Program-made: the position numbers and the translations under genes
Assembly: GCA_028874195.1 (NCBI GenBank)
Contig: JAPPLM010000075.1
Location: 1-37,105 of the forward strand
Length of the DNA stretch: 37,105 nucleotides
From: Chloroflexota bacterium
GTDB taxonomy: Bacteria; Chloroflexota; UBA11872; VXOZ01
Direction of reading: 5' to 3'
Part shown: positions 2,125-25,212 of the stretch, one piece after another
Layout of the letters: each line of letters starts with the position of its first letter
Numbering within the stretch: the first letter of the stretch is position 1
Notes under the pieces: model-generated
Database searches by the model: none
The model's input: only the letters and a program-made list of their open reading frames with translations
Told to the model about the DNA's origin: nothing

Positions 2125-2973
2125 ATGAAACTGCCTCTATCCGAATTCTACGTGCGGTTGCAGCGACTACTTGTCGCGGCGCGGCGAGCCAATGGCTTGA
2201 AACAGTCGGAGGTAGCTGCCCGCCTTCAGGTACCTCAGTCTTTTGTCTCAAAGTACGAGCGAGGCGAACGACGACTAGACGTGATTGAGTTCTTGCAGGT
2301 CTCTCAAAGCCTAGATGTGGACGCCTGTGAGCTTCTGATGAAAATCGGTATTGGTCGAGACTCTTCGAAGCCTCCCAATATTCTCGAACGATTATATCTG
2401 AGTGCAGACAACTTGACGAAGCTCGTCGATGCAAACCCTAGCTTATGGGGCATGCTACTGGGTTATGTGGCAGAGCATAAGCTACAGGAGCTATGGCTTT
2501 CGGGAAGTGAAGTCAAGTATCTTGGTAAGTCTGATGACCACGACCGATCCAACAAAGGAGATCATATCATCGAATACCAAGGTGAGCAGTTCGTTATTGA
2601 GAGTAAGTCTCTGCAATCACGGATGGTTCAAAGAGAAGGGAACACCTGGTATGGCAAAGCACAAGTAGACGCGAGCGATCGCCGTACTGTCACCCTAGAA
2701 GACGGAACTCAACTTGAGACTACACTGCTAATGGTCGGAGAATTTGATGTGCTCGCAGTGAATTGCTTTGCATTTGAACAAGAATGGAATTTTGTCTTCG
2801 CCAAGAACTCTGACCTACCAAGAAGCACCTATAGGAAATACCCCGAACGAGTTCGTGGTCAATTACTTGCTAGCCTTGTATCCGTTACATGGCCTCCTGA
2901 GCCACCTTTCACGGAAAACTTACTGGAGGTTCTCGATCAACTGCTAAGCGAACGCAGATCCGCGAGAACTTAG
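2125..2973 (+). CDS. HTH (XRE-type) fused to PD-(D/E)XK nuclease, probable restriction endonuclease
   Basis: Residues 10-75 form an XRE/Cro-type helix-turn-helix ([25 protein letters not shown]). The remainder looks like a PD-(D/E)XK nuclease: GD at 145-146, then a hydrophobic strand ending in E159-S-K161 (FVIESKS), with a possible helix glutamate near E117 or E122. A strand containing [13 protein letters not shown] follows, then [14 protein letters not shown], as in several HTH-containing restriction-type proteins. Its stop lies 9 bp from the stop of a convergent DNA methyltransferase, so a Type II-like restriction-modification pair is the best reading. The fused HTH may play the part of a separate controller (C) protein. 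GC content is visibly lower than in flanking housekeeping genes, suggesting acquisition. The recognition site is unknown. Seen: motifs and pairing. Inferred: cleavage activity. Confidence 0.75.
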
Positions 2974-2982
2974 GGGAGTCAA

Positions 2983-3705
2983 TTATCTTTGCGTGGCTTT
3001 AACGAACACCAAGAAGTATGAATGGTTCTTTCTCGCGTGAACCTGCTTCTTCAATCGGGAAATCACTGGTTTGTTGGAACGAACTACAACGAATAAGTCC
3101 TTTGTGTAAAAGCCCATAGATTCGTAGTCGTTGACAATCTCAACGTGTGTTAACCACTGCTTGCCAGCGCTTACTTCGTCCTGACATTTGACAATCAGGA
3201 CGCCGTTGGTTCTGAGAACTCGATAGGCTTCCCGTCCTGCCTCTCTGTAGAGTTCGGTCACAGCCGCATGCCACTTCGATTGACCGGGTCGTTCGTCCCC
3301 ATTCGAATAGTGCTCTCTAAATGCTGAGTGACTACCTCCTCCAGCCTTTTGGTTTGCTTGATTCCTATAGAATCCTTCCATGTATGGTGGGTCAAGCACT
3401 ACGCAGTCGATTTCACGATCTGCGTAAGGCAGATCTCGACAGTCTACCCCCATAGCAATGTCGGTGGCCCTGATGTCGTAAAGACCCTGATGTACCTTCT
3501 GCCAGAAAACACCCTTCCCCCACGTGACATCGGCTACGATGGCCCCTTCGGGAACATGCAACCGAAGGATTTGCGCAAATACATCCGCATTCCCGCTGAC
3601 ATGCGCAGACAGGATCGCATTGCTCGTACTAACGCCGCCTTGGACTCTGCGCTTATTCTGCTCTGACGCGACAACTTCATGTGGAATAAGAGATTTCATT
3701 CCCAT
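2983..3705 (-). CDS. DNA methyltransferase (DPPY motif), R-M partner
   Basis: This 240-residue SAM-dependent methyltransferase has an atypical motif I (VADVTWGKG, residues 57-65) followed by catalytic motif IV, DPPY at 105-108. The order I then IV excludes the beta-class arrangement. The C-terminus ends in [10 protein letters not shown], a signature I associate with small bacterial DNA N6-adenine/N4-cytosine methylases. DPPY favours adenine N6. No separate target-recognition domain is obvious; specificity may lie in residues 115-145 or near the C-terminus. It converges on the HTH-nuclease gene with only 9 bp between stops, so its likely role is to protect host DNA from that enzyme. I kept ATG 3705; another ATG lies two codons in, and no strong ribosome binding site is seen for either. 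Its GC content is as low as its partner's. Confidence 0.8.
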
Positions 3706-14395: not shown

Positions 14396-14618
14396 CGCAT
14401 CACCATTAGGTCCGAGTTCGTTTAGAGGATTTGAATTCCAAAGGAACTCTCAAATGAAAGCACACTCCTGCCGTGTTCGGCTCTCTGTGCAGGATTCATT
14501 ACAAATACGGCACAATAGAAAGAGGCTCATCGGCATTTCCGCAAAATGAGAGCATTCCTCAGTATGGTACTTTCTGTCGTATCGCAGTTACAAGCCCGTT
14601 CTTCAGACAAGAGCTTTG

Positions 14619-15941
14619 ATGGCGGAACCATTTGAAATCCGCGACCCCATTCACGGTTTCATCGAATTGGATGAATGGGAGCGGGACATTGTCAACCATC
14701 CGGTCTTTCAGCGACTCCGCCGTATTCGCCAGCTTGGACTCACGGATATGGTCTATCCGGGTGCAACACACTCGCGCTTCGAACACTCGCTGGGCGTCAT
14801 GCATGTTGCAACGAAGATGTTCGACGCAATCGTCGGACGCCGGCGCGGCTTCCTAGTCGATACGTACAACTACGATGAGGAAGGGGCAGGGCTCGCAAAG
14901 GATAGAAGGATTGTCAGACTAGCGGCATTGCTGCATGACGTTGGTCATGCCCCATTCTCTCATAGCGGTGAGGATCTGATGCCGGAGGTTGGAAAGGGAA
15001 GACGATATAAGCATGAGAATTACTCGGCAAAGTTAGTCGCTGACTTGATGACGGACGTTATTGAGAAGCATCCACTCAATCAGAACTATGACATTACTGC
15101 TCAGGACGTTGCAGATTTTATCGAGGGCAAACCAGCGGATTCCCTAGAAGGCAAGTCGTCTGCGGGTCGTCGCTTGTTCTGGAGAAACCTGGTATCCGGT
15201 CAACTGGACGCTGATCGTGCCGACTATCTCTTGCGCGACTCGCACCACATTGGCGTAGCGTATGGGCACTACGACCTGGAACGGTTGCTGACAACGCTAA
15301 CGGCTGTTGAGGACCCGGAGACCGGATCTCCCACTTTGGCAATCGAAGAAGGCGGTCTTCACGCAGCCGAAGGACTCATCATTGCGCGGTATATGATGTT
15401 TACGCAGGTGTACTTTCACCATACACGGCGTATCTATGATCATCATTTGGTTGAGGCTATGCGGTCTTTGCTCGCGCAATCCAAGGGTATGTTTCCTTCC
15501 CCTATCGACAAAGAAGGACTAGAAGAATATCTTAAGTGGGACGACTGGCGCGTGGTAGGGCGCCTTGCCGCCGGAAACGGAGGCACACATGGGGAGATCA
15601 TATTGAACCGGCGCCATGACCGGCGCGTTTACGAAACTCCTGAGTTTCCAGGGCGTGATGATTTGCAGCGTCTTGAAGCTGCTCGTAAAGCTTTGGGCGA
15701 AAGAGTGATCTTTGAAGATAGGGCGCAGAATTCTTGGTATACGATTGACAGCACAGACATACCAATTGTTCGGAAAGCTAAACTCGATCAGGAAGTTGTC
15801 GCAAGGCTCTCTGAACGGTCCACTGTAGTCAGTGGGCTTAGAGCAGTAAATAGGCGCCGTATCTATGTGCCGATTGGACAAAGTGAGGAGTGTCGGAGGA
15901 TAGTTGCTCAGATGCTGAGCAGTCAGGAGTCGGATGGATGA
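14619..15941 (+). CDS. SAMHD1/YwfO-like HD phosphohydrolase (dNTPase-like)
   Basis: This 440-residue protein resembles the SAMHD1 dNTPase core and Bacillus YwfO. Conserved features are DPIHGFIEL (residues 9-17), the FQRLRRIRQLG helix, and FPGATHSRFEHSLG-type sequence with His56. Next come His106-Asp107 (LLHDVGH) and GQLDADRADYLLRDSHHIG, with the fourth metal ligand at Asp197 or Asp199. Such enzymes hydrolyse dNTPs to nucleosides and triphosphate; activity is inferred. ATG 14619 is preferred to an overlapping TTG at 14616. Its stop overlaps the next start as ATGA, which implies translational coupling to the YwgA-like gene. GC is lower than in housekeeping neighbours, as in other accessory genes here. 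Confidence 0.9.
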   Translation: MAEPFEIRDPIHGFIELDEWERDIVNHPVFQRLRRIRQLGLTDMVYPGATHSRFEHSLGVMHVATKMFDAIVGRRRGFLVDTYNYDEEGAGLAKDRRIVRLAALLHDVGHAPFSHSGEDLMPEVGKGRRYKHENYSAKLVADLMTDVIEKHPLNQNYDITAQDVADFIEGKPADSLEGKSSAGRRLFWRNLVSGQLDADRADYLLRDSHHIGVAYGHYDLERLLTTLTAVEDPETGSPTLAIEEGGLHAAEGLIIARYMMFTQVYFHHTRRIYDHHLVEAMRSLLAQSKGMFPSPIDKEGLEEYLKWDDWRVVGRLAAGNGGTHGEIILNRRHDRRVYETPEFPGRDDLQRLEAARKALGERVIFEDRAQNSWYTIDSTDIPIVRKAKLDQEVVARLSERSTVVSGLRAVNRRRIYVPIGQSEECRRIVAQMLSSQESDG

Positions 15942-16543
15942 CAAAGGACATGCACTTTCCCTGGCATCAATATGCCCTTATTGTGAAACTAGCAGAGTGC
16001 CTCAACCATAGGCCTCGGTTACGCGCGGGTTCCAACAGCAGTTACCCGCAATTTGGCAAGACGGCGCTGCAAAAGCTGGTCTACCTACTGCAGGCAGTGT
16101 ACGACGTAGAGTGCGATTACGACTTTAGCCTTTATACGTACGGGCCGTTTACGTCAGAACTACTGCAAGACCTTGATCTCGTCGAATCGATTGGCGCAGT
16201 GCAAGTGCTCCCTGTACGTAAGGGGATGGATGGCTACGCTATTAAGCCTTATGAGAACGCTGCATGGGTCACTACGCAAGCAAAAGAGTTTCTTGAAGCG
16301 CACAAGTGCGCGCTAGGCAAACTGATCGAGGAGTATGGTCACTATTCAGCCAAAGAGTTAGAGATACGTGCGACGATGATCTATGTGGAACGTGAGATGA
16401 AGGGGGATGGCAAACCTGTGTCCCTAGACGGACTCGTGCGGGTGGTCCATGACATCAAGCCTTATTTCCCCAGAGATGAGATCAAGTCTGTTGCCGAAGA
16501 ACTTCAAGCGAAGGAACACGTAAAGGTGGCGGCTGATGGATAG
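15938..16543 (+). CDS. YwgA-like protein, partner of HD phosphohydrolase
   Basis: This 201-residue protein has the YwgA/Panacea-like opening: GKTALQKLVYLLQ, then the YDFSLYTYGPFTSELLQDLDLVESIGAVQV segment, matching the K-LQK-Y ... FHFYGPYSEEL pattern of Bacillus YwgA and of DUF4065-related antitoxin domains. In B. subtilis ywgA sits beside ywfO, an HD phosphohydrolase, so the pairing here repeats a known neighbourhood. Function is unproven; a regulator or antidote of the HD enzyme is a fair inference. The start ATG overlaps the upstream stop as ATGA, with AGGAG about 8 bases before; a longer start at 15890 would overlap by 52 bp and is rejected. The stop overlaps the next gene by 8 bp. Confidence 0.75.
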   Translation: MTKDMHFPWHQYALIVKLAECLNHRPRLRAGSNSSYPQFGKTALQKLVYLLQAVYDVECDYDFSLYTYGPFTSELLQDLDLVESIGAVQVLPVRKGMDGYAIKPYENAAWVTTQAKEFLEAHKCALGKLIEEYGHYSAKELEIRATMIYVEREMKGDGKPVSLDGLVRVVHDIKPYFPRDEIKSVAEELQAKEHVKVAADG

Positions 16544-22540: not shown

Positions 22541-23782
22541 CTACAGCTCTGGGTCGAGTCTCTCGTCAATACTGCCTTCAATGAGTCTCCTGGCAGCCTG
22601 ATAATACCAAGTGGTCTTTGCTCGCGTTGTATACCTCTTGAGTTCGCAACCGGGCGCGGTTGGTAGAGTTTCTGAATTATATCGGACTACCTTTCGGCAA
22701 TCGAATGCTTGTGTCAGTTTGGCAAAGAACCCTGTGTATTCCTTGCCGCCAAAGAACTCAATCGTCCCTCCATATCCTTCAGGTAATTGACAGAAGTCTT
22801 GATAGCTGTCGCGCTTGCCTCGCCGCTTCCATTTCTCAGCTTGAGAAGAGAATGTGATGTCGTATTGGGGCGTGAGAAACGAAGCGGAAATCAACCCCCA
22901 ACCGCCAGAGAGAATATACACTTTGCCAATGCCTAGGTGACTCACCAATTCTCGATAGATCGATTTTCTATAGAGTTCGAATGCCGGCAACAGGCCAAGC
23001 GGATTCTGCCCCGACCTCTGATATTCCAGATTGTATTCTAACAAGCGGTCTTTCCATGAGACCCCTGTTTCCGATAAATCGTCTGGATGCATGTAGACAC
23101 AATCATCTGATCTTCCTTCTTTCGGCACCAGCCCAGGATTGGCAACAAATCTAACTTCTTTGCCGTTCGCCAGCCTCATGGAACCGGCATAGTCTCTCTT
23201 GCTGGCGGCGCACACAATAACAACAATCACCGACTTATCGTGCTTGCCTGCCATCCCTCGAGTGGATTTTCGGTCATCGTCAGTCGTTTGGAGAATCTGA
23301 AAGTCCTCACCAGTCGTTTCTGATTCCTGTCCCCAGGCATCGGGTTCGTTTACCGAGAGTTCCCTCAAGACTTCACTCTTAGCTGCTAGGACCTTCTGCG
23401 CTTGCTGTTCTGCCGAGACAGCCATGAGGAGCCTCTGGCAAGAGTCAAGCGCCCGGTATGTATCGTCATCCGAAAACTGCTCTTGATGCGCCCAACTGTT
23501 GCGTACATCACGCAATTCATTCACAAAGCTGCGTTCCGAACGACCGAGCGTGTCACGAAACACTTCGTTCCAACACCGGTCCATCACACTGAGGAGAGCG
23601 TGTGCATCCAAATTGCCAAATGGTTGTTGCCAATTGGAGATTCTTGCGCCGAGCAACTGCTTTAGCACCTGCTGGCTGCGCCCCTTGTAATGTGCTGTGA
23701 ATTCCCGCTCTACAAAAGGCACGAGACCTGCCAATAGCAAGTCCAATGACTTGCTAATCAGGTCTCGATTTCTTGATGACAT
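22541..23782 (-). CDS. Swt1-type HEPN protein with C-terminal YaaA/DUF6884-like domain
   Basis: This 413-residue protein has two domains. Residues 1-125 form a Swt1-family HEPN domain: LDLLLAGLVPFVEREF, LDAHALLSVMDRCWNEVF, RSFVNELRDVRNSWAHQE and DDTYRALDSCQRLLMAVSA. The HEPN RNase motif RX4H is intact (Arg94-NSWA-His99). After an acidic linker (about 130-178), residues 183-380 resemble DUF6884/YaaA-type proteins: VIVVIVCAASK, LLPAFELYRKSIYRELV, VYILSGGWGLISASFL and PQYDITFS. Swt1-HEPN domains occur in bacterial defence and stress proteins; RNA cleavage is inferred. The ATG at 23782 is 17 bp after the rpoD stop, in the same direction. GC content is clearly lower than in rpoD and dnaG, suggesting a transferred gene. 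Confidence 0.8.
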   Translation of the reverse strand: MSSRNRDLISKSLDLLLAGLVPFVEREFTAHYKGRSQQVLKQLLGARISNWQQPFGNLDAHALLSVMDRCWNEVFRDTLGRSERSFVNELRDVRNSWAHQEQFSDDDTYRALDSCQRLLMAVSAEQQAQKVLAAKSEVLRELSVNEPDAWGQESETTGEDFQILQTTDDDRKSTRGMAGKHDKSVIVVIVCAASKRDYAGSMRLANGKEVRFVANPGLVPKEGRSDDCVYMHPDDLSETGVSWKDRLLEYNLEYQRSGQNPLGLLPAFELYRKSIYRELVSHLGIGKVYILSGGWGLISASFLTPQYDITFSSQAEKWKRRGKRDSYQDFCQLPEGYGGTIEFFGGKEYTGFFAKLTQAFDCRKVVRYNSETLPTAPGCELKRYTTRAKTTWYYQAARRLIEGSIDERLDPEL

Positions 23783-23799
23783 TTGTTTCGGCCCAACTG

Positions 23800-25134
23800 C
23801 TACAGGTCCAGATAGTCCTTGAGCTTCTGGCTGCGGGCAGGATGGCGCAGTTTGCGCAGGGCTTTGGCTTCGATCTGGCGGATGCGCTCGCGGGTGACGT
23901 TGAATTCGCGTCCCACCTCTTCCAGCGTGCGCGTACGGCCGTCTTCCAGGCCAAAGCGCAGCCGCAGCACCTTGCGCTCGCGATCGGAAAGCGAGTTGAG
24001 CACCGCCTCCACCTGTTCCCGCAGCATCTGGTATGACGCCGCATCCGCCGGCGACATCGTCGCCTCGTCTGGGATGAACTCGCCCAGATGGCTGTCTTCT
24101 TCCTCGCCGATGGGCGTCTCCAGGCTCACGGGTTCCTGCGAGACCTTGATGATTTCGCGCACCTTGGTTTCCGGAATGCCCATCTCGCCGCCGATCTCCT
24201 GCGAAGTCGGCTCGCGCCCTTTTTCCTGGACGAGGCGGCGGGAGATGCGCACCAGCTTGTTGATAGTCTCCACCATGTGCACGGGAATGCGGATGGTGCG
24301 CGCCTGGTCGGCAATGGAGCGGGTGATGGCCTGCCGAATCCACCAGGTCGCGTAGGTGCTGAACTTGAAGCCCTTGCGGTAGTCGAACTTCTCCACCGCG
24401 CGAATCAGGCCGATGTTGCCTTCCTGGATCAGGTCCAGCAGCGACATGCCGCGGCCCACGTACTTCTTCGCCATGCTCACCACGAGACGCAGATTTGCCT
24501 CGGTCAAGCGTTTGCGCGCCTCAATGCCGACAACGACTTCGCGTTCGAGGCGCCGGATCTCCTCCAGGGTCATGCCATCGCGGTTCTCGAGTTTCTCTTC
24601 GGCGAGGGGCCGCCGCTCCATCTGCTTAGCCAGCATGACTTCCTGCGGGGCGGTGAGCAGCGGCACCCGCCCAATCTCACGCAAGTAGGTCCGCACCGGG
24701 TCGTCGAGCGTGCCGGGCTCTTCTTCCGTTTTTGCCGACTTGAGGGCCGCCCGTTCCAGGGCCACCATCTCAGGGATACTAGGGGCGGCAGCTTCCTCTT
24801 CCTCGTCACCGCGGGTGTCAACTTCCTTAGCCGGCAGCACCTCGAGCCCGAGTTCGGAGAATAGCGTGAAGAGCTCTTCCGCTTCTTCGCTGTCGGCCTC
24901 GATGTCCGGAAACGCTTCCAGCAGCTCTTCCTGCGTCAGATGCCCGCGCCGCTTGCCGCGATTGACGAGTTTGCGGATGTCCTCTTCGGTGATTTCAAGA
25001 TCGGTCGCTTCAGTGACGTCAGACTGAGTCGCCGCAGCCTTAGGCGCTTCCTTTTCTCCTTTGTCCTGTACGACGGTTTTGTCCTGGACAACGGCTTTGT
25101 CCTTGACAGCGGTGTCGGTCGTATTCGCAGCCAT
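23800..25134 (-). CDS. rpoD: RNA polymerase primary sigma factor (sigma-70)
   Basis: This 444-residue housekeeping sigma factor directs RNA polymerase to -35/-10 promoters. It has an N-terminal region 1.1-like acidic part, region 1.2 ([12 protein letters not shown]), region 2 ([50 protein letters not shown] for -10 melting), region 3 ([14 protein letters not shown]) and region 4.2 ([23 protein letters not shown] for -35 recognition), ending in the usual KDYLDL. The extreme N-terminus has a short repeat, [14 protein letters not shown] 25134 is chosen because AGGAGG lies 5 bases before; an upstream ATG at 25164 lacks such a site. It follows dnaG by 78 bp in the conserved dnaG-rpoD order. Confidence 0.97.
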
Positions 25135-25212
25135 CTTTCCTCCTTCACAGGCAATGCTGTGCAAACTGTGCGGGATTGAATTTCTTACTTGGCCGACGCC
25201 ATGGCGCGACGG

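Follow-up and report, generated by a model that had tools for sequence, protein, structure and literature searches.

Background

The gene analysed here shares parts with several described or predicted systems. Toxins of the HEPN-MNT and Abi systems carry an RX4-6H RNase motif, and work on HEPN RNases (PMC3710099) is the background for the RNA cleavage predicted below. Hma systems, which also go by the name of Type-1 BREX-related systems, include HEPN-DUF499 ATPases among their components (PMC12839542, PMC8565338). DUF6884 (PF21818) and YaaA (PF03883) belong to the "cantaloupe" fold superfamily: DUF6884 is YaaA-like in fold and has been proposed to read DNA lesions, with CxxxK and LSAxxG named by the Pfam authors as its possible active site, YaaA binds DNA in oxidative stress, and the DUF6884 protein YfjM was found among DNA-lesion binders (PMC11701544). 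PDC-M57, with its components M57A and M57B, is a computational phage-defence candidate of PADLOC; no paper naming it was found in the literature searched.

A two-domain gene behind rpoD

The window, i.e. the whole stretch of 37,105 nucleotides that was analysed, carries an intact open reading frame of 413 aa with zero internal stops. The gene and its surroundings comprise the following features:

22541..23782, minus strand: HEPN_Swt1 / YaaA-DUF6884-like two-domain gene, 413 aa (ORF; orthologue in genome G002)
23414..23752, minus strand: HEPN_Swt1 domain, residues 11-123 (PF18731, E 1.9e-34)
23486..23503, minus strand: RX4H motif R94-N-S-W-A-H99 (from the sequence; R and H conserved in relatives)
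22571..23227, minus strand: domain 2, YaaA/DUF6884-superfamily long form (M57A-type), residues about 186-404
23198..23212, minus strand: CxxxK motif C191-A-A-S-K195 (C and K invariant in 21 sequences)
22895..22912, minus strand: LSxxxG motif L291-S-G-G-W-G296 (motif alignment)
22709..22987, minus strand: DUF6884-model match, residues 266-358, below cut-off (PF21818, E 6e-4)
23783..23799, no strand: gap of 17 bp between rpoD and the gene, without promoter-like or terminator-like site
23800..25164, minus strand: rpoD, neighbour, context only

The gene follows rpoD, which ends at 23800, in the same direction and at a distance of 17 bp, and its 3' end is convergent with a gene for an MBL-fold hydrolase. 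Its GC content of 0.502 (GC3 0.53) lies below that of rpoD (0.618, 0.78) and of the hydrolase gene (0.604, 0.75). Both the position and the lower GC had been noticed in the preliminary description and hold on re-examination. A 600-aa open frame overlapping rpoD was rejected, as the ATG at 23782 is backed by the alignment with G002. No promoter-like site was found in the region, and the terminator-like matches all lie outside the 17-bp gap. With gaps of 17 and 15 bp in the two species that have the gene, and no promoter-like match, expression by read-through from rpoD is a plausible prediction. No antitoxin gene was seen adjoining the two-domain gene, and the locus is not inside a defence island.

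Two further low-GC pairs lie in the window. At 2125-3705 (GC 0.49) a gene for an HTH_3 protein, possibly a restriction or control gene, is convergent with a gene for an N6_N4 DNA methyltransferase, and the pair looks like a small R-M unit. At 14616-16543 (GC 0.52) the gene of an HD-domain protein (HD_assoc_2, dGTPase-like) overlaps a SocA/Panacea-like gene (PADLOC DarG, E 2.6e-7); the two may form a toxin-antitoxin or defence pair.

The HEPN_Swt1 domain

The N-terminal half had been proposed as a Swt1-type HEPN domain with an intact RX4H motif (Arg94, His99). The profile search confirms the domain, with a PF18731 match that spans the full model (positions 1-115 of 115), and the motif R94-x4-H99 stands in the sequence, its R and H being kept in G002 and in every HEPN relative that covers the motif.

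Among the HEPN sequences found, the closest ones form the N-termini of proteins of ~1,150 aa. The best of them, 53% identical, comes from genome G016; this protein has DUF499 and is assigned by PADLOC to HmaC (E 2e-120). The window gene resembles such HEPN_Swt1-DUF499 ATPases in its HEPN domain (up to about 53% identity) and in the common RNxWAHQ motif, but differs from them and from Hma as it lacks AAA+ ATPase, methylase and helicase and has its HEPN joined to a YaaA-like domain. DUF499 is absent from the window protein, and the methylase and helicase of Hma were not recognised among the adjoining genes; because it has no DUF499 ATPase, the gene is not Hma. With the toxins of HEPN-MNT and Abi systems it shares the RNase motif, whereas neither a nucleotidyltransferase nor another antitoxin gene was seen, and control is presumed to reside in the same polypeptide. 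Going by sequence similarity, the HEPN half comes closest to one defence family (HEPN-DUF499/HmaC), while the other half belongs to another candidate (PDC-M57).

Domain 2, a long form of the YaaA/DUF6884 superfamily

The second domain had been described as resembling DUF6884/YaaA proteins, a likeness that profile-profile comparison supports (hhalign against DUF6884 proteins: probability 96.8, E 2.4e-10, 83 columns). PF21818 matches domain 2 with 20.4 bits against a curated cut-off of 30, and relatives of domain 2 score 24.6 and 25.2 bits; since the cut-off is missed, the domain is filed as a DUF6884 relative and not as a member of PF21818. It has CxxxK and LSxxxG in common with the DUF6884/YaaA superfamily, as well as the partner M57B, but is about 80 residues longer and has the extra motifs YDITFS, GGKDY, YNS and NWHY. 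In the second motif the window protein and G002 have G where LSAxxG has A (LSGGWG).

The AlphaFold2 model of domain 2 reaches a pLDDT of 92.5, and Foldseek returned no match below E 0.1 against the PDB. Searches of solved structures by sequence with the whole protein, domain 2 and M57B gave nothing meaningful, NCBIfam gave 0 matches, and PADLOC yielded two weak matches on the window protein, DpdC (E 7.8e-5) and PDC-M57A (E 0.015).

PDC-M57, a candidate two-gene module

When 84,980 species genomes were scanned with narrow seed patterns, the domain-2 profile matched 25 loci, which belong to Alpha-, Beta- and Gammaproteobacteria, Chloroflexota and Acidobacteriota. The domain is mostly free-standing (215-235 aa), with a C-terminal extension in L046. 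In 19 of the 21 intact loci the domain-2 gene is immediately preceded, on the same strand, by a gene of ~232 aa, often with an overlap of a few bases; this count includes the near-copies L041 and L042, with the upstream gene frame-broken in both, and L043, where it was seen by tblastn. Two intact loci, L028 and L036, lack it; L047 has both genes broken. PADLOC assigns the upstream protein to PDC-M57B (PDLC04714), with E 7e-87 and 6e-81 in the two that were tested. HEPN_Swt1 adjoins domain 2 in none of the 25 loci.

Among 400 Chloroflexota genomes M57B occurs in 11. It adjoins canonical DUF6884 in L104, L112 and L113 (E 1e-46, 8e-46 and 7e-47), and in L109 and L111 it adjoins YaaA-family genes that score above cut-off (E 4e-8 and 1e-8), so M57B is not paired with the long form alone. 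Its partner in L114 is a weaker member of the superfamily and in G001 the long form, and no YaaA/DUF6884-type partner was found within 1.5 kb in L105, L107, L108 and L110. From these pairings we assign domain 2 to the A component of the candidate two-gene module PDC-M57. The window gene has in common with PDC-M57 that domain 2 falls into the superfamily of the A component and that its close relatives directly adjoin M57B (E 7e-87); it differs in that the window genome lacks M57B and has HEPN_Swt1 fused instead, and in that the long form (about 220 aa) matches the M57A model weakly.

M57B was first taken as GIY-YIG. Its motifs GVYFF, VRVGTH, RL..H and IERN fit that family by eye, but Pfam gave no GIY-YIG match, hhalign against GIY-YIG reached a probability of 8.6 (E 0.0039), and Foldseek against the PDB and viral models gave nothing significant, the viral results including three GIY-YIG proteins with E 2.9-8.4. 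Profile and fold searches therefore do not confirm the assignment, and M57B is best called GIY-YIG-like by motif.

Two loci show further arrangements. L046 (6469-8993) has M57B flanked by two divergent domain-2 genes, the second of them with the C-terminal extension of about 110 aa, and L062 of G001 (574-1938) encodes a DUF6884 domain (E 2.9e-38) and, after it, a stretch of about 300 aa that no Pfam model matches.

Genomic context of the relatives

A survey of the neighbourhoods of homologues, proposed in the preliminary description, found Avs2, SIR2-like, GmrSD_N-SLFN, PDC-M01A/B, ArdC and HipA genes beside M57 pairs. The pair of Microvirga (L027) adjoins GmrSD_N-SLFN and PDC-M01A/B, that of Rhodovulum (L035) adjoins ArdC with relaxase-like ORFs near, the Salipiger locus (L044) looks alike, and in a gammaproteobacterium (L041) the pair adjoins HipA. 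On plasmids of Roseomonas, domain 2 occurs without M57B. Taken locus by locus, these surroundings would fit a defence gene that is mobile.

Three loci deserve a separate description. The defence island of Primorskyibacter (L033, 581-10185) has its M57 pair between Avs2 (E 0) and a SIR2-like (SIR2_2) protein. On Roseomonas plasmid L023 (3590-8690) a domain-2 gene without M57B lies behind genes for an RNase_H_2/AAA_12 protein and a 319-aa ORF; the latter has a PD-(D/E)XK-looking DLVIG..ELKK stretch and no Pfam match, and is possibly another effector swap. Roseomonas plasmid L022 (893-8690) has its domain-2 gene beside an IS6 transposase, with DUF1156, MBL-fold and helicase genes beyond.

An abortive or stress-type effector had been proposed for the window gene. 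A role in defence is indirectly backed, because candidate PDC-M57, to which domain 2 contributes the A component, has its loci in defence islands; it speaks against such a role that the window gene itself stands outside an island of this kind.

Distribution of the fusion in the genus

The genus was represented by the window genome (G000, 3.5 Mb) and five other genomes, six in total. In G002 a two-domain orthologue of 383 aa lies 15 bp behind rpoD and adjoins the same hydrolase gene. The two proteins are 58% identical over aligned residues, the flanking rpoD 91% and the hydrolase 86%. Nei-Gojobori estimates for the gene pair are dN 0.29 and dS 1.76, with dS near saturation, and they indicate a protein that is under purifying selection but fast-evolving. 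That a second species has such a gene at the corresponding place speaks against a chance open frame. No match to the two-domain protein was found in G003, G004 and G005, and G001 has domain 2 alone. The rpoD of G004 and G005 is 96% identical to that of the window, closer than the rpoD of G002; as the fusion is missing from these two despite their closest rpoD, its presence is patchy, which may reflect loss in the G004/G005 lineage or separate gain.

What lies behind rpoD varies in the congeners. G004 and G005 have an epimerase-like gene at this place. In G003 (L058, 3453-4514; GC 0.45) it is occupied by the gene of a DUF4917 protein, which is PADLOC's PDC-S21 (E 7e-119) and hints at a spot where defence genes become inserted. 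In G001 (L059, 6212-7804) a gene for a DUF4238 protein (GC 0.46) and a DUF5615-like gene are found. Given this varying content, the position looks like an insertion spot and not like a functional link to the sigma factor.

Beyond the genus, no fusion of HEPN and domain 2 was found in 400 Chloroflexota genomes or in one scan of species-genome contigs with a narrow seed pattern, which leaves two species of a single genus as its known range. Viral contigs gave no relative with the domain-2 profile, and phage records none with the whole protein. On plasmids the matches covered either HEPN alone (DUF499 proteins, Thermus and others) or domain 2 alone (Roseomonas).

The apparent exchange of M57B for HEPN

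M57B (PDLC04714) has no match in the window genome or in G002, so the window gene is a PDC-M57 variant and not a standard member. The tree of domain 2 groups the two fusions, at a support of 94/92, with two M57B-bearing loci, L026 of the same genus and L027, and with L028, which has no M57B; inner support in the clade joining the fusions to L026 is weak (90/35). The simplest reading, its direction included, would be that HEPN replaced M57B in this lineage, with the weak inner support and the lack of M57B in L028 as points against it. New here are the recognition of domain 2 as an M57A component and the apparent exchange of M57B for HEPN. No paper describing the combination of HEPN_Swt1 with a YaaA/DUF6884-like domain was found in the literature searched, in agreement with the initial impression that it is not a described system.

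Proposed mechanism and alternatives

The architecture is well supported. We consider it somewhat probable (roughly 0.55) that the gene represents PDC-M57 in a single-gene variant with a swapped effector, in which a HEPN_Swt1 RNase domain takes the place of M57B and domain 2 acts as a nucleic-acid sensor. Domain 2 would hold the HEPN RNase inactive within one polypeptide until a ligand is met, and would bind nucleic acid in the conserved CxxxK/LSxxxG cleft; the ligand is possibly a base in invading DNA that is flipped, damaged, modified or mispaired. Binding would release or dimerise the HEPN domain, upon which the R94/H99 site would cut RNA, growth would stop and abortive defence would result. 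We infer the RNase activity, self-inhibition, trigger, RNA target and anti-phage function from the conserved motifs, the Pfam authors' proposal for DUF6884, knowledge of HEPN RNases and the loci of the relatives.

YaaA is a housekeeping stress protein, so a role in repair is possible. The gene might then encode a cellular stress or DNA-repair factor with domain 2 reading oxidised or abasic DNA, HEPN tuning RNA turnover in stress and expression tied to rpoD, as would fit the stress- and lesion-binding record of YaaA and YfjM (PMC11701544) and the same place behind rpoD in two species. We regard this as unlikely, since the gene is absent from four of the six genus genomes, among them the pair whose rpoD is closest to that of the window, has low GC, diverges fast (58% vs 86-91% for the neighbours) and has relatives in mobile and defence loci.

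Somewhat less likely still is a domain 2 that is itself an enzyme, base- or nucleotide-processing and DNA glycosylase-like, attacking invader DNA with HEPN as back-up effector or RNA-binding sensor. An active-site role has been proposed for CxxxK and LSxxxG (PMC11701544), the C and K are invariant, and there are weak matches to DpdC, a protein of the deazaguanine DNA system, but no enzymatic activity was found for the superfamily in the literature examined, and the intact catalytic motif of HEPN argues against a role in binding only.

That a solitary HEPN toxin was joined to a domain-2 gene by chance recombination, without selected joint function, would suit a fusion confined to two species with no adjacent antitoxin gene, but is improbable, because both halves keep their motifs intact and evolve under purifying selection in two species that have diverged.

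Implications

Under the preferred reading as a PDC-M57 variant, the replacement of M57B by a known RNase domain suggests that the B component acts as effector, with sensing or regulation left to the YaaA/DUF6884 protein. The fusion, rare as it is, makes this division of labour in PDC-M57 directly testable, and it places a HEPN module resembling that of HmaC-type proteins in another candidate defence system. An immunity role would thereby be added for a superfamily known so far mainly from oxidative stress and DNA-lesion binding. More tentatively, and with the odds rather against it, the YaaA/DUF6884 superfamily may be a general class of immunity sensors for DNA that is damaged, modified or mispaired, and may arm nuclease effectors that can be exchanged for one another, M57B in the common two-gene form and HEPN here. 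If so, the window gene would be a one-protein system turning a DNA signal into RNA cleavage.
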